Part shown: positions 5,591-39,101 of the stretch, piece by piece
How the letters are laid out: each line of letters starts with the position of its first letter
Position numbering within the stretch: the first letter of the stretch is position 1
IMG/VR virus record: IMGVR_UViG_3300035703_000197
Coordinates: 1 to 39,101 of that record
From: a virus
DNA: 39,101 bases
Direction: 5' to 3' (one strand)
The notes under the pieces: generated by a model
What the model saw: the letters and a program-made list of their open reading frames with translations, nothing else
Told to the model about the DNA's origin: nothing
The model's database searches: none
Position numbers and translations under genes: made by a program

Positions 5591-5992
5591 ATGGATTTCA
5601 GCACGATTGACCTGGCGGCCAATGCCGACCGGGGCGCAGATTGCCACCTTGAGCATCCCGTTACTGAAGAACCGCTGTTCACCGATGACGGCAAGCCCGT
5701 CACCATCCGCGTGCTGGGGCAGGACAGCCGCGAATTCCGCGCCGCTGTGGCTGCGATTGCCGACAAGGCAAGGACGGGCAAGCAGACGCTGGACAAGGCA
5801 GAGGCCAACGCCATCGAGCTTCTCTCGCGCGTTGTGGTGCGCTGGGAAGGCATCGTGTGGGACGGTAAGCCGCTGGATTGCACGCCGGAAAACGTGCGCA
5901 TGTTCCTGTCCAAGTTCCCGCCGATCCGCCGCCAGCTTGACGAGTTCATTGGCAACCGCGCCAATTTTTTCAGGGCCGGCGCGAAGAAGTAA
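5591..5992 (+). CDS. Tail assembly chaperone, short form (gpG-like)
   Basis: This 133-residue protein lies between the tube and tape-measure genes, where siphoviruses encode the gpG-type chaperone. It has a beta N-terminus (EEPLFTDDGKPVTIRVLG) and helices ending PPIRRQLDEFIGNRANFF. Near its end, the codons AAT TTT TTC contain the heptamer T TTT TTC at 5965-5971. Six codons after the heptamer the zero frame stops at 5990-5992, while the -1 frame runs on to 6348. The chaperone coats the tape measure during tail assembly. Confidence 0.85.
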   Translation: MDFSTIDLAANADRGADCHLEHPVTEEPLFTDDGKPVTIRVLGQDSREFRAAVAAIADKARTGKQTLDKAEANAIELLSRVVVRWEGIVWDGKPLDCTPENVRMFLSKFPPIRRQLDEFIGNRANFFRAGAKK

Positions 5993-6348
5993 TCTTGTGG
6001 GCGCGGCAGCACGCTTGGCTGTCGGCTGACAAGACACGATGGGAGGTGGGCAAACTGCCTCCCGTTGCCGAAGACTTCTTGTGTGACGCGCTGGTCAGCG
6101 CCGGCCCGGTTGAAAATCACGGATGGGGGCCGGTCAGCATCAGCCCGCAGCGACTGGAAAGCTGGTCACGATTGACGGGTTACAGCCTGTCGCCGTGGCA
6201 AGCCGAAACGTTGCTAGACGCCTCGCGGGCGTATGCTGCCATCCTCAATGACAAGAAAGCCGCCGCGCCGTGGTCTGCTGAGGTGGACAAGGTGAAGGCA
6301 AGCAACGCCGTCAAGGCCGCATTGCGGGCAAGCAGACAGGGAGCATGA
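5591..6348 (+). CDS. Tail assembly chaperone, frameshifted long form (gpGT-like)
   Basis: A -1 slip on T TTT TTC (5965-5971) would join the short chaperone to the frame that is open from 5971 to the TGA at 6346-6348, giving about 252 residues. The fusion continues after ...NRANFF as QGRREEVILWARQHAW. No stop lies between the slip site and the downstream frame. The only start available to the downstream part alone is a TTG at 5995 without a clear ribosome site. The downstream domain has tryptophans and ends in a basic helix (KASNAVKAALRASRQG). This G/GT arrangement is conserved in siphovirus tails, where the long form recruits the tube protein. The frameshift itself is inferred. Confidence 0.8.
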
Positions 6349-6349
6349 C

Positions 6350-9300
6350 ATGGATTTTGCCAGGCTGACCCTTGCTGTTGACACAAAGCCGCTGGATCAA
6401 GCCGAAAAGGCGCTCGATGATCTGGCGGCGACTGGGGCGAAGACGGCGGCCAAGATCGACGGCGCGCTTGATCGGATGGATGACAGCCTAGAGGACGTTG
6501 CCGGCTCTGCCCAGCACGCCGCGAAGGGCATGAACGTCTACGAGCGGGCGGTGCGTGATGCCAGCACGCGCATCCCGGCAGCCAATGACAACATCGCCGG
6601 CATGGGCAGCACGTCCCGCCTTGCCTCGCACCACGTCCAGAACCTTGGGTTTCAGGTGCAGGATTTGGCTGTGCAGCTTGCCAGCGGTGCCAATCCGCTG
6701 ACCGCGTTCATTCAACAGGGCAGCCAGATCAGCGGCATTATGATGCAATCTGGCTTGAGCGTGCGGCAGTTTGCCGGCGAAATACTGACCATGACGGCGC
6801 GGGCCACGGCGGCGGTCGCGCTCAACCCGTATTTCTTGGCGCTGGCAGCGGCGACGGGCGCGGTTTACGTCGCCTTCAAGGACTTCAGCAACGAGGTTGC
6901 CAAGACGGGAGAACTGGAACGCTACGCCGCTGGCCTTGGCCTGACCGCCAAGGAAATGAAAGAGCTTGGCCCGGTCAGCATCACCGCCATGGATGCCGTC
7001 AAGGGCGTGTGGAAGACGATCAAGGACGGGCTGAACCTTGATAGCGTCTTCACGTTCCTCTCGGACGCATTTACCAGCACGTTCCGCTTTATCGGCGAGG
7101 CAGCGGTGGGCGTCATGGCAGGCGTTTATGGCGTGTTCGTCGGCACGTATCGCGGCATCGTGGCCACGTGGGACATGCTTCCGGCTGCGTTTGGCGATCT
7201 GGTCACGCAAGCCGGCAACTCGACCATTCGCGGGCTGAATGGCCTCATCGCCAGTTCAATCGGCCTGATCAACGGCATGATTGGCGTCGTTAATCCCATT
7301 CTCGATCAGCTTGGCATCGACACCTTCAACAAGCTGACCACGTTCAACATCCCTGAGATGCAGAACCGCTACAGCGGGGCGGCCAATCGCGCATCGGCGG
7401 CTTTCACCGGCGAGATCGTCAAGGCGACCGGCGAAGCGCGCGGGGCGATGGAAGGCGTTGGCAACACCATCAGCAACAACATTGTGCAGGCGGCCAAGGA
7501 TCGGCTTGCCGCGTCCGCTGCCGGCATCATCGACGAGCGCAGCGAAAAGGCGCTCAAGGACAAGGCCGCCAAGACCGGGACGGAAACCGGCGACGCGCTG
7601 GCGGAATACATCAACAAGCAGACCGGCAAGGTAACGACCGCGCTAACGGTCAGCCTGGCGCTTGATAAAGACCCGTTCGGCGGCGCGATTGGCGAACTGG
7701 AAAAGCGCGTCACTGACTTTGCCGAGGCGCAGCGCCGGGCGGCAGAGGAACAGCGCGCGGCCATGATGGCCAATCTGAACACGTTCCGTGACGTGGCCAG
7801 CGAGGCGGGACAGTTGATCGGCGGCGCACTTGGGCAGGGTGTGCAGCGCCTTGCCGACTTGCTGGCGCGTGACTTCCCTGAGTTTAGCGCGTTCCTTGGC
7901 GATACGTTCCGCGACATTGGCCGCTCCATCGACCGCGTGTTGAGCGGGCTGGGCACAAGCCTGGGCAAGCTGGGCCAGAGCTTTGGCGTTGGCAGCGCGA
8001 TTGGCAACCTTGTGGGCGGCAGCAGCGTGGGCGGCGGCATTGGCGGCGCGCTTGGCGGCGCGGTGGGCGGCAAACTGCTTAGTTCACTGGGCAGCTTTGC
8101 CGGGCCGATTGGCACGATTGCGGGCGGCCTGCTTGGCTCGCTGCTTGGCGGCCTCTTCAAGAAGAACCCGTTTGCCGATGTGCGCCTGTCAGGAACTGGC
8201 TCCGGCACGCTGTTCAACCAGCGCGGCGGTGAGGAAAGCGCGTCTGCCGGTCTTGCGCTGGGAGACGCCTTCAGCCGCGAGATTGGCCTCATTGCGCAGG
8301 CGCTGGGTGCAACCGTCAAGGGCAATGCCAACTTCGGCGCAATCGGTTTCAGCGGCGACCAATTCTATTTCAACCCGACGGGCGGCGACTTCAAGGCCGC
8401 TGGCAACATGCGGTTTGGAACGGCAGAGCAGGCTGTTGCCGCTGCTATCCGCAATGCCGTAAATCAAGGCGCGTTTGAGGGCCTGACTGAAAGCAGTAAG
8501 ACTATCCTTGCCAGCTTGCAGGAGGTCAACGCCGACGCCGTGGTTCGGGCGGTGGAGCAGTTGAACGCCGCGCGGGGCACGCTGGTGGAAGCGTATAACC
8601 GCGAGGCGTCGGCTTTGACTGCCACGCTTGACCGCATCCGGGGCTTCACTGCCGGGCTGACCGCGTTCCGCGCCAACCTTGCTGAACAGCTCATGACGGC
8701 AGAGGAAATTTATCAGGCAGCGCGCGGTCGCTTTGAGGAAATCAGCCGCGCCGCGATTGCCGGCAATGAAGCGGCCATCGGTGATCTGGTGGGCGTGTCG
8801 CAGCGTTACCTTGACGCGGCAAAAGGCTTCCTGACGCCGGAAGAATACAGCCGCGAAATCGAGAACGTCATGCGCGCGGTGGATCTGGCGATTGCCCAGA
8901 CGAAGACGATGGAGCAATACGCGCAAGGCCAGTTGGACGCGCTGAACAAGAGCGTCGAGGGGCTGCTGAAGGTTGATGAAAGCGTCGTTTCGGTGCGCCA
9001 GGCTGTTGACCGCCTTAACGGCGTCATGGGCGGCTTTGCAGCCCGTGCCAGCGCGCCGGTCGTCAACCCGCTTTACACGCAAGCCGACTTCTACATGGGC
9101 GGCGGTGGCGGCGGGTTTTTCAGTGACGGCATGGAACCGCCGCGCTTTGCCACGGGCGGGATGCACAGCGGCGGCCTTGCCATCGTCGGTGAGCAGGGGC
9201 CGGAACTGGTCAACATGGGGCCGGCGCGCGTGTGGAACGCCACCGAAACGGCGTCCATGCTTGGCGGCAGGATGGCTGATGAGGCGACGCAAGCCGAACT

Positions 9301-15321: not shown

Positions 15322-15482
15322 CACATTGATTTGTTTGGGCGTGGTTTTTTGCGGTTTACACGTAACCGCTTGATTTTGCGGGATTGCTCGCAGCTTGGGA
15401 AGCTGACAGGCTACCATTACATCATACCCGCTTTTCAACGGCTTAGAGGGTGCGGAAATCACTGGTTTACACCCGGTTTACC
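15302..15482. other. Candidate phage attachment site (attP)
   Basis: Just beyond the 3' end of the integrase gene, a 41-base block resembling the first half of tRNA-Gly(CCC) (15391-15431, minus strand) is flanked by four direct copies of GGTTTAC[AC]: 15302-15309 and 15353-15360 on one side, 15464-15471 and 15475-15482 on the other. A core matching a host tRNA with repeated arm sites on both sides is the anatomy of tyrosine-integrase attP sites. The last two copies lie in the integrase C-terminal codons. The host attB would be a tRNA-Gly(CCC) gene. The assignment is inferred. Confidence 0.6.
15391..15431 (-). tRNA. Partial tRNA-Gly(CCC)-like sequence, 5' half (attP core)
   Basis: On the minus strand the block has an acceptor-like GCGGGTA, then TG, a D loop AATGGTA, and an anticodon stem CAGC / GCTG around loop TTCCCAA, giving anticodon CCC. 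After that the match ends: there is no GTTCGA-type T arm, no 3' acceptor strand pairing with GCGGGTA, and no CCA. It is therefore not a complete tRNA gene. It is best read as the identity segment shared with a host tRNA-Gly. Confidence 0.6.
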
Positions 15483-16523
15483 GTTGACCGCTCCAAGGCG
15501 CTGCCCGATTGCCACCACAACCGCCGCCTCGTCAACATAATGCGTGCGGATCGCGTCAACCTGCGCCTCTGTCCAGCCCATCAGCCGGGCAATCTCGCGG
15601 TTGGTGAGGCCGGCGCGGCAAAGGGTGGTGCAGAACGTGCCCCGGAAGTCGTGCAGATGCTTGGCCGGCAGATCGAGCGCGGCGCGGGCGTCGGCATAGC
15701 TGCTGCCCAGTCCGTTCGCCGTCCAGGACTTGCCGTGGCTATTGACCAGCGCCGTCACCACACCATCGGCGCGCTTGCGGGTGCGCAGATCGGCCGCCAG
15801 CGCCGCCAGTTCTGGCAGCATCGGAATCGACACGCTGGCCCGGCGCCCGCTCTTGGCCGTGCGCCACACGATCGCGTGTTCACCGATCGCAGACAGTGGC
15901 AGCGCAATCAGGTCACCGCGGCGCAGGCCGGTCAGCCGGGCAAGGTTAACCGCATCGCGCACCGGCTGCGGCGCGGCCTGCCATGCTTCCAATTCCTCGG
16001 CCGTCCAGATCACGGCGGCGCGCTGGCCGCCTTTGTAAAGCTGCGGCAGCCCTTCGGCGTGGTTGTTGGTGAGGTGGCCAAGCATCCGGCCATAGCCCAG
16101 CAGCGCGCTCAACACCTGCACCCGGTAGTCGGCCTTGCGCGGCGTGTCGGCCATGCTGTCGCGCCAAGCGATGATCTTGGCCCTGATGCGGCGGTCGTCC
16201 ATGATGTGCAGCGGCACCGCGCCCCACTTGGCCACCAGATCGGCCATGACATAGCCCCACTGCTTGCGGGTGCTGGCGGCCATGTTCGCCCATGTCGCGC
16301 TGGTTTGCCATGTCGTGGCCAGCCATTGCACCGTGTCTGCCGGCACGCTGGCGCGGGTGGCGCGGGCGGCTTCGAGCAAGGTCATGGCGTCTTCGGACAG
16401 CACCGCCGGCCGCGCGCCCTCGCTGCGCATGATGCAGGGGCCGCCGCGCCAAGCATAGACATGCCAGCGGGCGCCTTTGCCAGCCAGACGGCGGCGAACG
16501 ATGTGCAGCCCCTTCACGTTCAC
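15459..16523 (-). CDS. int: Tyrosine integrase
   Basis: This 354-residue site-specific recombinase inserts and excises the phage. The N-terminus (VKGLHIVRRRLAG) is an arm-binding-like region. The catalytic domain has Arg in ARLTGLRRGDL (Arg201), Lys in RTAKSGRR (Lys224), HDFR (His291, Arg294) and the nucleophile Tyr329 in THYVDE. The position of the usual second His is Trp317 (LMGWTEAQV), a tolerated variant. I chose GTG 16523: it overlaps the preceding stop (GTGA) and has GGGAGGG six bases upstream. The candidate attP lies directly after the gene. Confidence 0.9.
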   Translation of the reverse strand: MNVKGLHIVRRRLAGKGARWHVYAWRGGPCIMRSEGARPAVLSEDAMTLLEAARATRASVPADTVQWLATTWQTSATWANMAASTRKQWGYVMADLVAKWGAVPLHIMDDRRIRAKIIAWRDSMADTPRKADYRVQVLSALLGYGRMLGHLTNNHAEGLPQLYKGGQRAAVIWTAEELEAWQAAPQPVRDAVNLARLTGLRRGDLIALPLSAIGEHAIVWRTAKSGRRASVSIPMLPELAALAADLRTRKRADGVVTALVNSHGKSWTANGLGSSYADARAALDLPAKHLHDFRGTFCTTLCRAGLTNREIARLMGWTEAQVDAIRTHYVDEAAVVVAIGQRLGAVNGKPGVNQ

Positions 16524-16693
16524 AGCTTGCCCTCCCACTGCGCCCAGGCATCGCGTGGCTGGGCTGCGGCGGGGATGATACGGATCGTGCCATCGGGGGC
16601 AAGTTCAACGCCGCCGGGGGTAATGCCAGACGCCCGCGCGGCCTCGGTGGCGCGCTTGATGGCGGCTTTCGTGGCATAGCGGGCGCGGCTCAT
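16520..16693 (-). CDS. Small protein upstream of integrase (57 aa)
   Basis: The start is MSRARYATKAAIKRATEAA; then GGVELAPDGTIRII and a C-terminus AWAQWEGKL. Short proteins of this shape are regularly found immediately before integrases in alphaproteobacterial phages and islands. It overlaps the integrase GTG (GTGA). A role in integration or excision control is possible, but it has no recognisable winged-helix excisionase fold. Confidence 0.7.
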   Translation of the reverse strand: MSRARYATKAAIKRATEAARASGITPGGVELAPDGTIRIIPAAAQPRDAWAQWEGKL

Positions 16694-17434: not shown

Positions 17435-17559
17435 GCCGACCTCCGTTTGTCCGAAAAGGCAAAACACGCCATTGCCGGCAGGCGAGGCTTGCCCCCATAT
17501 GGACTTTCTGGATTTCGGCAGAAATTGCCTTGATAATGCTTGCATTTGATGCACGTCAC
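17431..17559 (-). CDS. Small Cys-rich protein, zinc-knuckle-like (42 aa)
   Basis: GTG at 17559 overlaps the PP-loop gene's stop (GTGA), and the TGA overlaps the next ATG (ATGA). The protein has CIKCKHY, then a third Cys after GNF and a fourth in MACFAF, so four Cys that could hold one zinc. It is basic at the end (SDKRRSA). Short Cys-x2-Cys proteins of this kind are common next to nucleic-acid enzymes in phages. It is coupled between the PP-loop and methyltransferase genes. Confidence 0.6.
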   Translation of the reverse strand: MTCIKCKHYQGNFCRNPESPYGGKPRLPAMACFAFSDKRRSA

Positions 17560-18422
17560 GGCGCTTCCCCGCACCACAGGCCACATTCAGCGTCCATTTC
17601 AGGATCGGCGTCAAAGGCGCCGGCAAAGTTGAGACCATGCTGCCGCCTGACCGCCTCTTGGATTTCCGCATATGTTTCCTGTTCGCGGAACGTCGCGCCG
17701 CTCTTGGTGGCCTTGGCCAGTTCAGAGGCTTTGCGCTCTTGATCGGCCCACCACGTCAGCGCACCGGGCCGTGTGCGCTCAACTTCAAACAGTTTTGGCC
17801 GCGCTTTCAAAAAACAGGCGTCACAGTTGCCTTCAAACGATAGCAACTCCAGGTCAAACGGTTGCGCCCGCCAGAACGCCATCACGTCGCGTTGCGTTAC
17901 GCCAGCAACAGCCAGAGGCAAAAGCGCGCGCCACCGCTCTTTGCCCGCTGCGTTCGCTTTGTTGGCGCGGGCGACCCGGCCCGGTTCGTCTGCGCGGAGC
18001 CCGACAACGCTGTCCCACCGCTGCCAATCCATCGCCCGGCAGAAGTCGCGCATCACGCGCACTTTCAGTTCCACGCTGCAAAACCGGGTGACGGCGTTCG
18101 GCAGATAGCCCTTCTTGGTAATCAGCGCCTCGAACGGCTCTCCAGATCGGGAAGCGGTCTCAAATGCGACCTCCGTAAACCCGCGCTGATCGGCGTCGCT
18201 GCGCTCCAGCCAATTCACCCGCACATTCCAGCGTGTCGCGCATTCGTAAACGAAGCGCAACGTTTCTTCGCGCTCCTTGCCAGTGTTGGCAAAGGTCACG
18301 TGCACATCATCGGGAAGCGCGCCGGCATGCGCTTGAAGAATGCGCCACAGCATATAGGCGCTAGTGCGACCACCGCTGAAGGAAATCAGGGCCGGCCCGG
18401 CGATCTTGAACGGATCTCTCAT
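17556..18422 (-). CDS. PP-loop ATPase of the PAPS reductase / DndC-like family (288 aa)
   Basis: The nucleotide loop SFSGGRTSAY (residues 14-23) is the PP-loop SGGxxS motif of adenylating enzymes in the PAPS reductase superfamily. Later Cys motifs (RFCSVELK, GNCDACFLK and CGLWC) are placed as in DndC-like and phage members, which may carry a metal or iron-sulphur site. Cellular relatives reduce PAPS or install sulphur in DNA. Phage copies are widespread and of uncertain function. Within four genes of a DNA methyltransferase, a role in modifying phage DNA is plausible but inferred. The start overlaps the previous stop (ATGA). Confidence 0.8.
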   Translation of the reverse strand: MRDPFKIAGPALISFSGGRTSAYMLWRILQAHAGALPDDVHVTFANTGKEREETLRFVYECATRWNVRVNWLERSDADQRGFTEVAFETASRSGEPFEALITKKGYLPNAVTRFCSVELKVRVMRDFCRAMDWQRWDSVVGLRADEPGRVARANKANAAGKERWRALLPLAVAGVTQRDVMAFWRAQPFDLELLSFEGNCDACFLKARPKLFEVERTRPGALTWWADQERKASELAKATKSGATFREQETYAEIQEAVRRQHGLNFAGAFDADPEMDAECGLWCGEAP

Positions 18423-21911: not shown

Positions 21912-22574
21912 TCAGCCTGCCGCGCGGATTGCGGACAAGGCATTTGCATGGATGCGCAGCGCCTTGGCGTGGGCTTCCGGATTGGTGGATTGCAGCTTGG
22001 CCAGGGCCTTGGCTTCGGCGGCGGGCCAGTTGTGGATGCCGTCAATGTCGGCGGCCTTGAGCATGGCATCGAGGCGCTTGTTCTGATCGTCCAGCCACTG
22101 TTCTGGCGTCATCTTCGCCGTGCGCTGAGGCGGCTCTGTCGGCTCCGGCGTGTGCGCGTCGGCGTCGTTGTCGCCTTCGGTGGGCACGGTGAAGGTCATC
22201 AACACCGCATATTTCAGCGCCGCGCTCATGGCCTTGTTGGTGGCCTTGTCACCGCTGTCGCTGGCCTCGCCAAACGTGCGGGCGGTGTGCTTGCTGCCAT
22301 CCGCGACGGCAACAAAATCAAACTCAGCCTCAACGGTCACGAAATACATAGCGCCGCCGCTTTTCGTGGTGCGTGGGTCGCACTCGCGGGCGATCATGCG
22401 CGGGATGATGGTCAGGCCATTTGCCGGCAGCAGGCTGGCGACGGCGCTGTAAACGTCATCAATACCCCGGAAGGCAAAGCCCTGCTGCTGGTTGCGGCGG
22501 TTTTTGCTGATGCCCTCCTTGGCCAGCGCGGCCTGAACGGCGGCGATGGCGGCATAAACGGCGGGTGCAGTCAT
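21912..22574 (-). CDS. erf: ERF-family single-strand annealing recombinase (220 aa)
   Basis: The ERF core is clear: MTAPAVYAAIAAVQAALAKE, then GFAFRGIDDVYSAVASLLP and ASDSGDKATNKAMSAALKYA. The variable C-terminal part contains a proline/threonine linker and a helical domain. ERF proteins anneal complementary strands during phage recombination and circularisation. I chose ATG 22574, with AGGA about ten bases upstream; a GTG at 22589 that overlaps the previous stop is also possible. SSB follows directly. Confidence 0.85.
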   Translation of the reverse strand: MTAPAVYAAIAAVQAALAKEGISKNRRNQQQGFAFRGIDDVYSAVASLLPANGLTIIPRMIARECDPRTTKSGGAMYFVTVEAEFDFVAVADGSKHTARTFGEASDSGDKATNKAMSAALKYAVLMTFTVPTEGDNDADAHTPEPTEPPQRTAKMTPEQWLDDQNKRLDAMLKAADIDGIHNWPAAEAKALAKLQSTNPEAHAKALRIHANALSAIRAAG

Positions 22575-22585
22575 GGTATCAATCC

Positions 22586-22894
22586 TCACTTTGCCAGCAA
22601 TTCAGGGGACAGCCCGGCAGCCACAAGGGCGCGGCGGGCGCGTTCGTGGTCGCTGTCGGCGGCGGCCTGCGCAGCGCGTTCCTTGGCCAAACAGGCAGCA
22701 TAGGCGGCGGGCAGATCGGCGGCGTGGGCATGGCTCCAGTCCACCATGCGGCGGCCGGCGCCCATGGACACGCCGAACGCAAATTCATCGCCAAGCCAAT
22801 TCTGGTTGACGCTGATGCACGTCACGCCTTCGGGCAGGCCATAGGCTTCGTGGGCAGCCTGCACGGCGGCCAGGAACGGATGGAGATCGTTCAC
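22586..22894 (-). CDS. Hypothetical protein (102 aa) upstream of ERF
   Basis: GTG 22894 has GGAG seven bases upstream and overlaps the stop of the preceding micro-ORF. The product starts NDLHPFLAAVQAAHEAYG and contains ISVNQNWLGDEFAFGVSM, then a helical C-terminus. I do not recognise the family. A longer frame to 22999 exists but would overlap the upstream gene. Confidence 0.65.
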   Translation of the reverse strand: MNDLHPFLAAVQAAHEAYGLPEGVTCISVNQNWLGDEFAFGVSMGAGRRMVDWSHAHAADLPAAYAACLAKERAAQAAADSDHERARRALVAAGLSPELLAK

Positions 22895-23734: not shown

Positions 23735-24012
23735 TGGCCGCGCTCCACCTTGGCCAGAACGGTGGCAATGCGATCAAGGCGGCGCTGCACGCTGTCGTCA
23801 GCAGGCGGGTGGCGCAGGTCGCTTTCATACTGCCAGACTAGCGCCAGCAGATCAGGCGCGGCGGCGATCAGGCGCGCGTTGGCCTCGGCCTCTGCCAGTT
23901 TGATGCCAGACACGCCGCCACACTCGGCGCGCAATATTTTGCGGTTGCGGCTGTCCATCACTGAGGTTTCATCGCCAGCGTTCAAACGCCAAGGCGTATG
24001 ATGCCCGCTCAT
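23731..24012 (-). CDS. Common phage accessory protein (93 aa, ANARLIAAAPDLL type)
   Basis: The central EAEANARLIAAAPDLLALV motif is the hallmark of a very common but functionally unknown family of small phage and prophage proteins. The N-terminus, MSGHHTPWRLNAGDETSVMD, also fits (HTPW start). It overlaps neighbours at both ends (ATGA-type). Confidence 0.75.
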   Translation of the reverse strand: MSGHHTPWRLNAGDETSVMDSRNRKILRAECGGVSGIKLAEAEANARLIAAAPDLLALVWQYESDLRHPPADDSVQRRLDRIATVLAKVERGQ

Positions 24013-24185
24013 TGCCCGGCCTCCCGTTCGGCCAACATCGCGTCGGCAATGTCGAACGCCATGATAGCGACAACCTCGGCATTGCCCGGTTGCAGATCGT
24101 CGGCAAACGCTGGCAGCAGGCCGGTCAGCGCGGCTGCGGCGTATAGGTCACGCAGCGGCACAGCGGGCGGGGTGGGCGCGGTCAC
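24009..24185 (-). CDS. Hypothetical protein (58 aa)
   Basis: The GTG at 24185 overlaps the preceding gene's stop (GTGA). The product is helical: PLRDLYAAAALTGLLPAFAD, then VVAIMAFDIADAMLAERE. Short proteins with an 'ALTGLLP...A..IADAML.ER' layout recur in phage early regions without known function. Confidence 0.65.
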   Translation of the reverse strand: MTAPTPPAVPLRDLYAAAALTGLLPAFADDLQPGNAEVVAIMAFDIADAMLAEREAGQ

Positions 24186-24946
24186 TTGGCGGCCTCCACA
24201 AACTTGCCGCCTTTGCAGCGATACGCCGCGCCGGGCTCGATGCCGTCCTCGCCAACGTAGGCAACGGCGATGCGGTAGCGGTTGCCGTCCCACCATTTCA
24301 GGGAAAGGCTTGCCCTGTTGCCGCCGGTCACGGTCGCCCAGTTGCCGCCGGTCACGGTCGCCCAGTTGCCGCCGGTCACGGTCGCATCGTCGCCGCCGGT
24401 CACGGTCGCATCGTAGCCGCCGGTCACGGTCGCCCTGTTGCCGCCGGTCACGGTCGCCCTGTAGCCGCCGGTCACGGTCGCATCGTCGCCGCCGGTCACG
24501 GTCGCCCTGTTGCCGCCGGTCACGGTCGCCCTGTCGCCGCCGGTCACGGTCGCCCTGTAACCGCCGGTCACGGTCGCCCTGTCGCCGCCGGTCTTGAAAC
24601 AGCCATGAACCGCAGCGCCGGGCTGCACAGCAAGCAGCGCATCGGTCGCCGTCTTGCGGTCGCCAAACGCCACCACGCGGCAGGATTGGAACTTATGCTT
24701 GCCGGTCAGATCAACACACGGCACGCCGTCTTCAACGGCAACGACCCACCACAGCGCGTCATCACTCCACGACAAATGGCTGCTATCGCCTTCGCCGTTA
24801 AGCAGGCCATGCAATCCGCCGCCGCAATTGGCATCGTCGCGCCAGTCAGGGGCAGTGACGACTGCGCCAACCTCAAGCGGCCATTGGAAGCCGCCATAAG
24901 CGCGGCCTTGTGCGTCGGTGGTGCGCAGGAAGTAGCGGGCGCTCAC
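24182..24946 (-). CDS. Octapeptide-repeat protein, ice-nucleation-like solenoid (254 aa)
   Basis: Residues 1-119 are a folded N-terminal part with several Trp and Cys (SARYFLRTTDAQGRAYGGF; WSDDALWWVVAVEDGVPC). Residues about 120-215 are twelve octapeptides G-G-x-x-A-T-V-T, eleven of them exact at ATVT, with x-x chosen from DR, YR, NR, DD, YD and NW. The C-terminal 39 residues close the fold (SLKWWDGNRYRIAVAYVG). Eight-residue periods of this kind (compare AGYGSTxT in ice-nucleation proteins) form narrow beta-solenoids. It is an early protein, so this is not a virion fibre by position. The GG-x-x-ATVT face may mimic or bind an extended polymer; function unknown. Confidence 0.7.
   Translation of the reverse strand: MSARYFLRTTDAQGRAYGGFQWPLEVGAVVTAPDWRDDANCGGGLHGLLNGEGDSSHLSWSDDALWWVVAVEDGVPCVDLTGKHKFQSCRVVAFGDRKTATDALLAVQPGAAVHGCFKTGGDRATVTGGYRATVTGGDRATVTGGNRATVTGGDDATVTGGYRATVTGGNRATVTGGYDATVTGGDDATVTGGNWATVTGGNWATVTGGNRASLSLKWWDGNRYRIAVAYVGEDGIEPGAAYRCKGGKFVEAAK
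24302..24589. repeat. 12 tandem 24-bp coding repeats
   Basis: On the + strand the unit reads GCCGCCGGTCACGGTCGC plus six variable bases. Eleven units are nearly identical and the twelfth (beginning of the array on this strand) is degraded. The 24-base period keeps the frame, so copy-number change by slippage would lengthen or shorten the solenoid without breaking the gene. Confidence 0.9.
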
Positions 24947-25269
24947 AGCGACACCATCACGTCGCGGGCCGTAAGCCGCATCAGCGCAGCGGCACGTTCG
25001 GCGCGGTTCGCAGCGATGATCTTGCCGACCACGCGCAGCAGCACGTCATCGGACAAGCGCTTCACCTGTTCACGCGCGTCGTCGGCTTCGTTTTCGTATT
25101 CGGTGGCGTTGTCGGACAAGCCCTGTGCGGCCTCTGTCCAGTCCATGCCAAGCCGCCCCGCCAGCTCAAGCATCGCGGCGAAATCAACCGCCTCGGCGCA
25201 CGGTTCGGGCAGGTCAGGAAATGCGCGGTCGAATGCGCGCCAGTCTATGCCATCGGTGAGAATGCTCAT
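24943..25269 (-). CDS. First gene of the early-left operon, hypothetical (108 aa)
   Basis: The start ATG 25269 has GGGAG upstream and lies about 35-40 bases after the predicted transcription start of the early-left promoter. The product starts MSILTDGIDWRAFDRAFPDL and continues with coiled helices (ATEYENEADDAREQVKRL). Its promoter-proximal place makes it the first leftward product after derepression. No homologous function is recognised; an N-like antiterminator would be expected to be smaller and more basic. Confidence 0.7.
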   Translation of the reverse strand: MSILTDGIDWRAFDRAFPDLPEPCAEAVDFAAMLELAGRLGMDWTEAAQGLSDNATEYENEADDAREQVKRLSDDVLLRVVGKIIAANRAERAAALMRLTARDVMVSL

Positions 25270-25308
25270 TGTCGTCTCCCTCGCTGCGATGTGCGGCGAT
25301 GGGGACAA

Positions 25309-25337
25309 TGGTTACGGAATTCGTATGGGATAGTCAA
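25309..25337 (-). promoter_or_regulatory. Early-left promoter (PL)
   Basis: On the minus strand: -35 TTGACT (25337-25332), 17-base spacer, -10 TAACCA (25314-25309). The spacer ends with the operator TACGAATTCCGTA, whose last TA is the start of the -10. It faces the whole early-left operon. Confidence 0.6.
25313..25325. promoter_or_regulatory. Operator OL1 (TACGGAATTCGTA)
   Basis: A 13-base near-palindrome with arms TACG and CGTA. Its reverse complement is exactly the operator at 25928-25940. It overlaps the PL spacer and -10, so a bound repressor would block the promoter. Confidence 0.7.
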
Positions 25338-25457: not shown

Positions 25458-25859
25458 TCAATGCCGCGACGGCAAGCCTGATTGACGACCGGCCAAAAAA
25501 CCCGCAGCCGCATCAGCTGTGGGAGCCTGAGACTGACGCCGCGCGAAGTTGGAAAATGCTTGCAGGTCTTCTGCCAACTCTTGAACAAGCGGATCGTCAG
25601 ACGACAGAGGCTTGCCAAGCCGATTGGCAATGTGCAGCGCCAACAACCGCGCCACGCCTTCACTGATCGGCTCGATCTGGTCAGATTGATCTAGGCGGAA
25701 AGCGTCAACCAGGCGCTTGGCCTCGTCAAGCAACACGCGCCGCTTGCCGGAATACATTTCGGTGATGCGTGGCGACGGCAAATTGAGCGCGCGGGCCATG
25801 TCAGCCTTGCTGATACCCTTGCGCTCTAACGCCGCCAGAAGACCCTTCGTGTCGAACAT
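25458..25859 (-). CDS. CI-like repressor with HTH, no protease domain (133 aa)
   Basis: The helix-turn-helix is near the N-terminus: GLLAALERKGISKADMARAL, then PSPRITEMYSGKRRVLLDEA. The rest is a short helical domain (GVARLLALHIANRLG). There is no S24 peptidase domain, so induction cannot use LexA-like self-cleavage. It is divergent from the Cro-like gene and flanked by the TACG-N5-CGTA operators, which marks it as the immunity repressor. I use ATG 25859; the open frame extends upstream across the operator region, so it is unlikely to be coding there. A TTGACG at 25924-25919 (minus) could be its -35. Confidence 0.75.
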   Translation of the reverse strand: MFDTKGLLAALERKGISKADMARALNLPSPRITEMYSGKRRVLLDEAKRLVDAFRLDQSDQIEPISEGVARLLALHIANRLGKPLSSDDPLVQELAEDLQAFSNFARRQSQAPTADAAAGFLAGRQSGLPSRH

Positions 25860-25915
25860 GCCCAAGGCTTGCGGATAATTTTGCGCCGCGTCCACTACGA
25901 ATGCCGAAATAGCTG

Positions 25916-25944
25916 TTGCGTCAAACTTACGAATTCCGTAATGT
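25916..25944 (+). promoter_or_regulatory. Early-right promoter (PR)
   Basis: -35 TTGCGT (25916-25921), 17-base spacer, -10 TAATGT (25939-25944). The layout is the same as PL: the spacer ends in the operator and the operator's final TA begins the -10. Transcription would start about base 25951, which is the cro-like start codon. Confidence 0.6.
25928..25940. promoter_or_regulatory. Operator OR1 (TACGAATTCCGTA)
   Basis: Exact inverted copy of OL1, in the PR spacer and -10. A diverged relative, TACGAATGCCGAA, lies at 25896-25908 and may be a second weaker site near the repressor promoter. Confidence 0.7.
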
Positions 25945-25950
25945 GGCGGC

Positions 25951-26154
25951 ATGAAAACAGCAGATGACATTGTTCAGGCGCTCGGCGGCACGAAGGCTGT
26001 GGCCGAAGCCCTTGGCCTTACCGCCTCCGTTGTGTCGAGCTGGCGCACGGCAAACAGCATTCCACGCTGGAGGCATGATGCGCTGATCGCGCTTTCGAAT
26101 GGTTCCCTCACAAGTGGCGACTTTCCGATGAAGCGGGAAAAGGCCGCCGCATGA
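25951..26154 (+). CDS. cro: Cro-like repressor (67 aa)
   Basis: A small helix-turn-helix protein: DDIVQALGGTKAVAEALGL, then ASVVSSWRTANSIPRWRHDA, which matches Cro/YdaS-type regulators (Trp-Arg and Pro-Arg-Trp-Arg after the recognition helix). It is the first gene of the rightward early transcript and divergent from the CI-like gene. The predicted start of transcription coincides with its ATG, and no ribosome site is available, so the mRNA is probably leaderless. Confidence 0.8.
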   Translation: MKTADDIVQALGGTKAVAEALGLTASVVSSWRTANSIPRWRHDALIALSNGSLTSGDFPMKREKAAA

Positions 26155-38235: not shown

Positions 38236-39101
38236 TGTTGTCGAACATGCTGAAAGCGGCCAAGGTGCCGGCGGGCGGCGGCGGTCAGCAGTTTCTGGCA
38301 GTGGCGCACAACAGCACGCCATTCATCACCGCCTACCCTTGGAGCAGCAGCGGCTTCGGCACGAAATACGCCAATCCGGCGACGTTGCCGACTAGCAACG
38401 GCAACGACGTTGCCTTCACCCCCGCAGGCGATGCCATCGCTGTGGCGCACTCGAGTTCGCCATTCATCACCGCCTACCCTTGGAGCGGCTCCGGCTTTGG
38501 CACTAAATACGCCGATCCTTCAACCCTGCCGACTGGCACCGGCTTGGGCGTCGCATTCTCGCCCTCTAGCGATGCAATTGCCGTGGCGCACAACAGCACG
38601 CCATTCATCACCGCCTACCCTTGGAGCAGCTCCGGCTTTGGCACTAAATACGCCAATCCTTCAACCCTGCCGACTGGCACCGGCTTGGGCGTCGCATTCT
38701 CGCCCTCTAGCGATGCAATTGCCGTGGCGCACAACAGCACGCCATTCATCACCGCCTACCCTTGGAGCAGTTCCGGCTTCGGTACTAAGTTCACCAATCC
38801 TTCAACCCTGCCGACTGGGCAAGGCAGAAGGATATCCTTCTCTCCAGCAGGCGACGCCCTTGCTGTGGCGCACCCCACGTCGCCATTCATCACCGCCTAT
38901 CCGTGGTCAAGTAGCGGCTTTGGAACGAAGTTTGCCAATCCGGGAACGCTGCCGCCTAACACTTGCAACGGCGTTGCCTTTTCCCCCGCAAGTGACGCCA
39001 TCGCTGTGGCGCACCCCACGTCGCCATTCATCACCGCCTATCCGTGGTCAAGTAGCGGCTTTGGAACGAAGTTTGCCAATCCGGGAACGCTGCCGCCTAA
39101 C
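38235..39101 (+). CDS. Beta-propeller (WD40-like repeat) virion protein, N-terminal part (continues at base 1)
   Basis: The start is MLSNMLKAAKVPAGGGGQQF, then 47-residue units AVAHNSTPFITAYPWSSSGF, GTKYANPATLP, a variable turn, and VAFSPxxDAI. Five full units and most of a sixth lie before the window end. Joining base 39061 to base 1 adds the rest of unit six and unit seven, giving exactly seven units in about 346 residues with an unbroken frame. Seven WD40-like units is the usual number for a closed propeller. Repeats 2 and 3 are nearly identical in DNA, so recent conversion or assembly collapse is possible. It may bind host surface or stabilise the virion. Confidence 0.85.
   Translation, partial: MLSNMLKAAKVPAGGGGQQFLAVAHNSTPFITAYPWSSSGFGTKYANPATLPTSNGNDVAFTPAGDAIAVAHSSSPFITAYPWSGSGFGTKYADPSTLPTGTGLGVAFSPSSDAIAVAHNSTPFITAYPWSSSGFGTKYANPSTLPTGTGLGVAFSPSSDAIAVAHNSTPFITAYPWSSSGFGTKFTNPSTLPTGQGRRISFSPAGDALAVAHPTSPFITAYPWSSSGFGTKFANPGTLPPNTCNGVAFSPASDAIAVAHPTSPFITAYPWSSSGFGTKFANPGTLPPN
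38310..39101 (+). repeat. 141-bp tandem repeats encoding propeller blades
   Basis: Direct repeats of 141 bp run to the window end and continue at 1-200. Neighbouring units are highly similar. The longest shared blocks include CTTCAACCCTGCCGACTGGC and the surrounding bases (copies near 38519 and 38660), and the unit that also starts the window. Short-read assembly could have lost or added a unit here. Confidence 0.9.
39062..39101. repeat. 40-bp terminal overlap with bases 1-40
   Basis: The last 40 bases equal the first 40. They lie within the tandem repeats, so the overlap shows circularity or permutation of the assembly rather than a packaged terminal repeat. Removing it leaves 39061 bp and keeps the propeller gene in frame. 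Confidence 0.9.

Follow-up and report, generated by a model that had tools for sequence, protein, structure and literature searches.

A tandem array of near-identical 24-bp units in a phage gene that appears to be expressed early raises the question of what its product could serve, and of which part of the gene is evolving. We addressed this question for a repeat ORF in a virus record of 39,101 nucleotides (IMGVR_UViG_3300035703_000197 of IMG/VR), the whole of which is called the window here, starting from a preliminary description that had been made from the sequence alone.

The repeat gene lies in a predicted leftward early operon

The repeat ORF is the second gene of a predicted leftward early operon (Table 1). 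Both predicted promoters, pL and pR, enclose the operator-like 14-nt motif; a strict promoter scan returned zero promoters. Downstream of the repeat ORF, ERF, SSB and then the integrase are all encoded on the minus strand, and the plus strand carries the virion genes (terminase, portal, coat and tape measure), away from it. Because of this layout, namely the promoter-like sites, the inverted motif, the repressor and Cro genes and the ERF, SSB and integrase genes, the early-left placement is well supported at the sequence level, in agreement with the preliminary description, which placed the gene second from the early-left promoter and outside the virion operon.

Table 1. Positions of the repeat gene, its parts and the surrounding control and recombination genes in the window.
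Feature	Position	Strand	Remarks
Bbp36-type ORF	24182..24946	minus	GTG start, 254 aa; 4-nt overlap with each neighbouring gene
DUF7666 head, residues 1-112	24611..24946	minus	predicted ADP-ribosyltransferase-like fold; PF24703 E=1.6e-4
Octapeptide array, 12 units (11 GGxxATVT + GGNRASLS), residues 120-215	24302..24589	minus	predicted beta-solenoid
C-terminal cap, residues 216-254	24185..24301	minus	homologous to E. coli YdhT cap
First gene of leftward operon	24943..25269	minus	ATG at 25269; longer TTG start at 25308 possible
Downstream neighbouring gene	24009..24185	minus	GTG at 24185 (short start inferred; ORF list gives 24009-24296)
Predicted pL	25309..25337	minus	promoter-like pattern, TTGACT-17-TAACCA
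Predicted pR	25916..25944	plus	promoter-like pattern, TTGCGT-17-TAATGT
Operator-like 14-mer, left	25312..25325		exact inverted pair with 25928-25941
Operator-like 14-mer, right	25928..25941		exact inverted copy of 25312-25325
HTH repressor-like gene	25458..25970	minus	HTH_26 E=1.9e-5; true start probably internal, near 25859
Cro-like DNA-binding gene	25951..26154	plus	phrog_8008 E=6.2e-7
ERF single-strand annealing protein	21912..22589	minus	PF04404 E=2.6e-18; same gene run as repeat ORF
Tyrosine integrase	15459..16538	minus	PF00589 E=3.3e-10; near end of minus-strand gene run

The adjacent genes say little about function. The first gene of the operon matched neither a PHROG nor, at E≤0.01, a Pfam family, and the downstream gene had weak PHROG matches in its C-terminal part, one of them a transcriptional regulator. 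Across relatives, neighbouring genes offered no consistent functional hint, a set of 98 neighbours giving at most two members per family; a first neighbourhood clustering had been marred by wrong-frame ORFs in high-GC loci. A PAPS-reductase-like protein (17556-18422, minus strand; PF01507, E=3.1e-6) is encoded in the same minus-strand gene run. Elsewhere in the window, a second repeat protein, a 460-aa ORF at 1306-2688 on the plus strand near the tail genes, consists of repeats 66 bp (22 aa) long that follow the pattern ADAGTLGLTGGxATF and had no Pfam or PHROG match, and tandem repeats of 141/282 bp (38301-39082, plus strand) run nearly to the record's end.

A head, an octapeptide solenoid and a cap

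Tandem Repeats Finder reported a period of 24 with 11.8 copies and 90% matches (score 431) at positions 24312-24593. The encoded protein has 11 exact GGxxATVT octapeptides and a twelfth, degenerate unit, so that the twelve GG-x-x-ATVT units of the preliminary description are reached if the degenerate one is counted, the exact units being 11 only. Of 11 units, 10 share one and the same 18-nt core, and differences are confined to the two x codons, which are GAC, TAC or AAC and then AGG, GAT or TGG. AlphaFold2, run with 40 aligned sequences, predicted the octapeptide solenoid that had been proposed from the letters (pLDDT 96.3), with each TVT forming a strand, one per 8 residues, and the two variable, exposed residues lying in the turn that precedes the strand.

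The resemblance to ice-nucleation-type solenoids, also proposed earlier, holds for the style of the repeat and not for a family match. Bacterial ice-nucleation proteins, as outlined in PMC10727499, share the TxT strand, the order of head, solenoid and cap, and Arg-bearing coils, whereas their coils have 16 residues, are far more numerous and include R-coils at the C-terminus; in the window protein a TxT recurs every 8 residues and Arg-bearing units are scattered along the array rather than gathered in a C-terminal block. A scan of 41 family members matched 7 families at E≤0.01, from which the Pfam ice-nucleation repeat is missing, short repeats being hard for HMMER to detect, and the grass antifreeze beta-roll family PF21300 gave a sub-threshold match (E=3.2e-4).

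The gene belongs to the Bbp36/variable region 2 family

A tblastn search of 50,697 phage records matched 8, including those of Bordetella phages BPP-1, BMP-1 and BIP-1, where the GenBank records label the array 'variable region 2' (VR2); bbp36 of BPP-1 matched the window protein at E=1e-21. Other relatives were found in Burkholderia phage Mica, where the protein is annotated as 'ice nucleation protein', and in Pseudomonas phage D14O, where the homologue (L007:3965-4624) carries the name 'flagellar hook-length control protein fliK' and looks misannotated owing to its repeats. The window protein also matched phrog_18079 (E=6.1e-48). Because of these relatives with an annotated variable region 2, we assign the window gene as a new homologue of Bbp36, a kind of gene already described in 2004. 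The DUF7666-type head with its CGxGLHG motif, the 24-bp units with two variable codons and the cap are all present in the window gene. It shares with the Bordetella genes a homologous head, units in which the core is constant and a short spacer varies, the same cap and a location on the cI strand, downstream of that gene, and differs from them in its core (GGxxATVT versus AGxxGTAT), with about 41-43% identity. As Liu 2004 is summarised in PMC2884959, the Bordetella 24-bp element consists of 19 constant bp and one of three 5-bp spacers, its copy number is 9-20 depending on the isolate, and bbp36/VR2 is non-essential in BMP-1, has no tie to tropism and has a role given as unknown.

Alignment-based scans returned 78 relatives in viral contigs and 3 in genome contigs. 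In total, 80 genes with the head motif were counted, including that of the window, after a row for the window itself (L001) and duplicates of BPP-1 and Mica (L028 and L042) had been dropped. Seven loci that lack the head motif (L008, L060, L064, L084, L085, L086 and L088) are outside the 80; in two of them (L060:5794 and L064:5812) the half of the head with CGxGLHG is lost through an in-frame deletion, and long, diverse arrays are kept. A Gluconacetobacter diazotrophicus prophage (L087:5346-5879 and 5941-7344) carries two tandem DUF7666-type genes with about 2 and at least 27 units. The gene with at least 27 units was left out of the counts, and L044 and L087 represent one locus twice, neither being among the 46 arrays analysed below. 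Two candidate connections were rejected. Mycobacterium phage Tweety gp54, which was compared with VR2 in a 2007 paper (PMC2884959), does not appear to share the head, having no DUF7666 match, and bbp37 is not supported as a macrodomain partner, having no Pfam match and matching only phrog_2072 (function unknown).

Arrays differ between phages with near-identical flanks

The three Bordetella phages are identical in 2348 of 2348 nt before the array and in 1698-1699 of 1700 nt after it. Their annotated arrays measure 330 bp (BPP-1), 498 bp (BMP-1) and 474 bp (BIP-1), which explains all but 1-2 bases of the differences between genome lengths of 42,493, 42,663 and 42,638. The two variable residues of each unit (the diresidue) differ as well, BPP-1 having 11 YR units and BIP-1 mostly ES and NY. 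The NY spacer, common in BIP-1 (L004), is absent from BPP-1 despite the identical flanks.

Comparing repeat number across related phages, a check proposed in the preliminary description, gave the same picture outside Bordetella phages. Among 23 genes that were hand-picked as one Pseudomonas type (including L053, which has an ambiguous base), all 32 close pairs, with at least 99% identity in the N-terminal flank and at least 97% in the C-terminal flank, carried different arrays; for example, genes with identical flanks had from 2 to 19 units. The nearest named record to this type is D14O (91.7% over 142 residues). L019 and L023, prophage records of one strain by their IMG numbers, match at 403 of 405 flank positions and have different arrays. 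Many of the loci come from metagenomes or draft assemblies, where repeats can collapse, and a collapsed assembly could shorten arrays but could not create new diresidues. Separately, 23 of the 80 genes run off a contig end, as might be expected if near-identical repeats break assemblies. The in-frame length variation that the 24-base units were said to allow was seen in relatives; sibling isolates of the window phage did not turn up. The preliminary description overlooked that evolution acts on the diresidue of each unit more than on array length.

Both even (21) and odd (16) unit numbers occur, which argues that the geometry from head to cap is not fixed. In 36 distinct arrays the order of units was close to random, the similarity at lag 1 being 0.335 compared to 0.314 after shuffling, with 155 of 1000 shuffles as high. 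A functional period of 16 residues was rejected, since the similarity at lag 2 (0.309) was no higher than in shuffled arrays (0.316). Similarity at lag 3 was slightly raised, with 11 of 1000 shuffles as high, which probably reflects duplicated triplets.

Diversity is concentrated in two codons and is almost entirely nonsynonymous

Among the 80 genes, 46 had at least 5 units found. Over these 46 arrays, mean nucleotide diversity was 0.55, 0.22 and 0.18 at the bases of the first variable codon and 0.58, 0.36 and 0.24 at those of the second, and it was at most 0.05 in all other columns except the third base of the Gly codon before them (0.157), a position at which many arrays deviate in their first unit. 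In 44 of the 46 arrays, using only units with consensus core amino acids, which makes the core pN of 0 a matter of construction, the two variable codons had a pN of 0.3585 and a pS of 0.0038, and the core had a pS of 0.0195. Pairs within arrays are not independent, and a count of types is the conservative version: in 20 core types, which may share ancestry among themselves, there were 75 extra amino-acid types and 3 synonymous-only ones against an opportunity of 1576:361 (binomial p=1.1e-4).

The cores tell a complementary story. For the amino-acid core GTATAG, many different synonymous 18-mers were found between phages and mostly one within each array; because of this pattern, homogenisation within arrays together with divergence between phages, we read the cores as undergoing concerted evolution. 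Slippage alone was rejected as the source of the pattern because it would homogenise whole units, and untargeted local hypermutation was rejected because synonymous changes would be left behind. Diversifying selection, or a process altering only particular bases, remains as the candidate explanation. A search of the open-licence literature found nothing on this diresidue pattern or on an ADP-ribosyltransferase (ART) fold for DUF7666.

The head is predicted to resemble ADP-ribosyltransferase folds

In the window protein, PF24703 (DUF7666) scored 22.6 bits, below the cut-off of 27, in an alignment spanning the whole head. In comparison, 8 of 9 records of relatives were above the cut-off, and DUF7666 was matched at E≤0.01 in 38 of 41 family members scanned. 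Across 35 heads, D34, C41, G42, G44, L45, H46, G47 and K85 are invariant and R8 is near-invariant. Set beside the catalytic R-S-E or H-Y-E residues of the ART superfamily, these heads conserve R8, H46 and, late in the domain, K85, but no glutamate, and canonical catalysis of the ART type is doubtful for this reason.

The AlphaFold2 model of the head (pLDDT 94.7) was compared with 999 chains by VIA-align, and Z exceeded 3 only for ART folds, in eight PDB entries from 3.4 to 5.0: KptA (5.0), TreTu (4.8 and 4.4), Arr (4.5 and 3.8), PARP16 (4.2), PARP13 (4.2) and residues 592-694 of CNFy (3.4), of which we take KptA, TreTu and the CNFy stretch to be ART-like. The next entries were unrelated, with Z of 2.2 and lower. 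With Foldseek, neither the whole model nor the head alone had a PDB match at E≤0.001, and the head sequence matched no PDB chain at E≤10. The modelled head thus resembles ART folds weakly but exclusively. Against BFVD, the whole model gave 277 matches in Foldseek, 13 of them at E≤0.001 and DUF7666 proteins among these; phage proteins named RIIB appeared lower down, at E of about 0.01-0.05. In bacterial genomes DUF7666 was found at 1/369 and 3/385, at least two cases having Ala-rich tails, not solenoids.

The solenoid and cap occur elsewhere without the head

NCBIfam PRK09946 (YdhT) matches residues 122-245 of the window protein at E=6.4e-6, and the solenoid-cap part was connected to YdhT by hhalign (97.7%) and blastp (E=2e-8). 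YdhT of E. coli K-12 has an octapeptide solenoid with the same C-terminal cap, but its N-terminus is of another kind without DUF7666 (hhalign probability 0.13% against the 35 heads), its repeats are degenerate, and its gene is chromosomal, beside ydhU. A few genes from ydhT, ydhQ (L103:6872-8128, minus strand) is also repetitive and is annotated as adhesin-related. In the EL-type Pseudomonas jumbo phages (EL ORF100), octapeptide solenoid and cap are likewise combined, but without a DUF7666 head, with degenerate repeats and with an extra C-terminal region. The full array was present in 7 of 9 EL-type records (L104-L112), the other 2 sharing a deletion; the annotation of L107 (MIZ-Pa99), L109, L110 and L112 passes over the solenoid gene in favour of ORFs encoded on the other strand. 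Arrays that are homogenised and variable were observed together with the DUF7666 head, whereas the YdhT and EL-type solenoids are degenerate, and rapid rewriting is therefore not a necessary property of such a solenoid.

Discussion

Taken together, early layout, turn residues under apparent selection and an ART-like predicted head would suit an accessory protein that acts inside the cell and whose partner changes, the simplest candidates for this partner being host defence and a rival prophage. Our preferred reading, to which we give a probability of roughly 0.4, is that the window gene encodes a Bbp36/VR2-type early accessory binder with a face that recombination can rewrite, probably directed against a variable factor of the host or of a rival phage. 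The protein would be an early product of a temperate phage's leftward operon, with a DUF7666 head of ART-like predicted fold followed by an octapeptide beta-solenoid and a YdhT-type cap. Units would be shuffled by recombination (single-strand annealing) and by slippage between identical cores, perhaps with the ERF of the phage itself taking part. The two residues would be kept diverse by selection on the amino acids, since they would form the surface that meets a partner which itself varies, and the head would anchor, modify or block that partner. A counter-defence role of the early solenoid, as had been suggested, is possible.

Several other explanations have to be weighed against this one. 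The head could be the effector, an active or residual ADP-ribosyltransferase using NAD or an ADP-ribose-like ligand on a host protein, with the variable solenoid as its targeting arm, much as other phage ARTs act on proteins of the host soon after infection. The confinement of Z>3 to ART folds, with a drop to 2.2 thereafter, and the conservation of R8, H46, D34, C41 and K85 argue for it, and ARTs of phage T4 are described as modifying host RNA polymerase (PMC7824862); nevertheless, with a lysine and no glutamate conserved, with Z scores in the range of common arrangements and with no sequence match among PDB chains, we consider it unlikely, if the foremost of the alternatives. Next to it, and unlikely as well, comes a passive minisatellite in a dispensable gene, where slippage would change the array and the turn residues would be unconstrained. 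Its dispensability in BMP-1 (PMC2884959) and the near-random order of units would suit such an array, but unconstrained sites predict equal nonsynonymous and synonymous diversity, and the former was about 18 times higher by pairs, with synonymous changes nearly absent in the two codons. Less probable again is a self-assembling filament of the ice-nucleation type, in which solenoids would stack, either by their ends or by their sides, and the two variable residues would decide on co-assembly. TxT-type strands, Arg-bearing units reminiscent of the R-coils of ice-nucleation proteins (PMC10727499), the shared order of head, solenoid and cap and the PF21300 beta-roll match are in its favour; the unmatched Pfam repeat and the scattered Arg-bearing units are against it.

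Two further explanations carry little weight. The preliminary description had proposed mimicry of nucleic acid, by which a DNA or polyanion mimic would titrate a DNA-binding defence protein of the host. An early gene for a rod-like solenoid would agree with this, but the charge of the array is near zero, at -0.09 per unit in the window, with values of -1.15 to +0.77 and a mean of -0.20 over the 46 arrays and a positive charge in BPP-1, so that mimicry is disfavoured and appears very improbable. The lowest probability goes to a virion or receptor-binding protein under selection for tropism. Phage repeat arrays are often found in fibres, and BPP-1, BMP-1 and BIP-1 are named for their tropism, both of which would point that way; against it stand the location in the leftward early operon and the statement, given in PMC2884959 with reference to Liu 2004, that VR2 does not follow tropism.

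A more specific form of the preferred reading, that of an early binder with a rewritable face, is a recognition module in which each octapeptide would contribute one two-residue specificity element, with arrays rewritten, cores homogenised and a divergent ART-fold head aimed early at changing targets of the host or of rival phages. We regard this form as tentative, ranking below the general reading and just ahead of the effector explanation. TAL effectors (with their repeat-variable diresidue) and PRDM9 zinc fingers are systems of homogenised repeats with few hypervariable contact residues, and the analogy with the Bbp36-type array is one of working alike only, the folds being unrelated. If true, the recognition module would be an evolving code of the TAL-effector or PRDM9 kind on a beta-solenoid.

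New here are the array differences at near-identical flanks, the diversity signature of the diresidues, the weak resemblance of the modelled head to ART folds and the presence of the module, in degenerate form, in YdhT and EL-type phages. What was noted in 2004 as a repeat gene of one group of phages is thus part of a wider family, with 80 head-motif genes, and its solenoid-cap module is tied to the uncharacterised YdhT of E. coli. For DUF7666, a family of unknown function, the ART-like model may serve as a first structural lead. A single genome is enough to read the signature of selected diversity, in which cores are homogenised and the diresidue of each repeat is diversified, and this signature makes the question of what VR2 is for directly testable.
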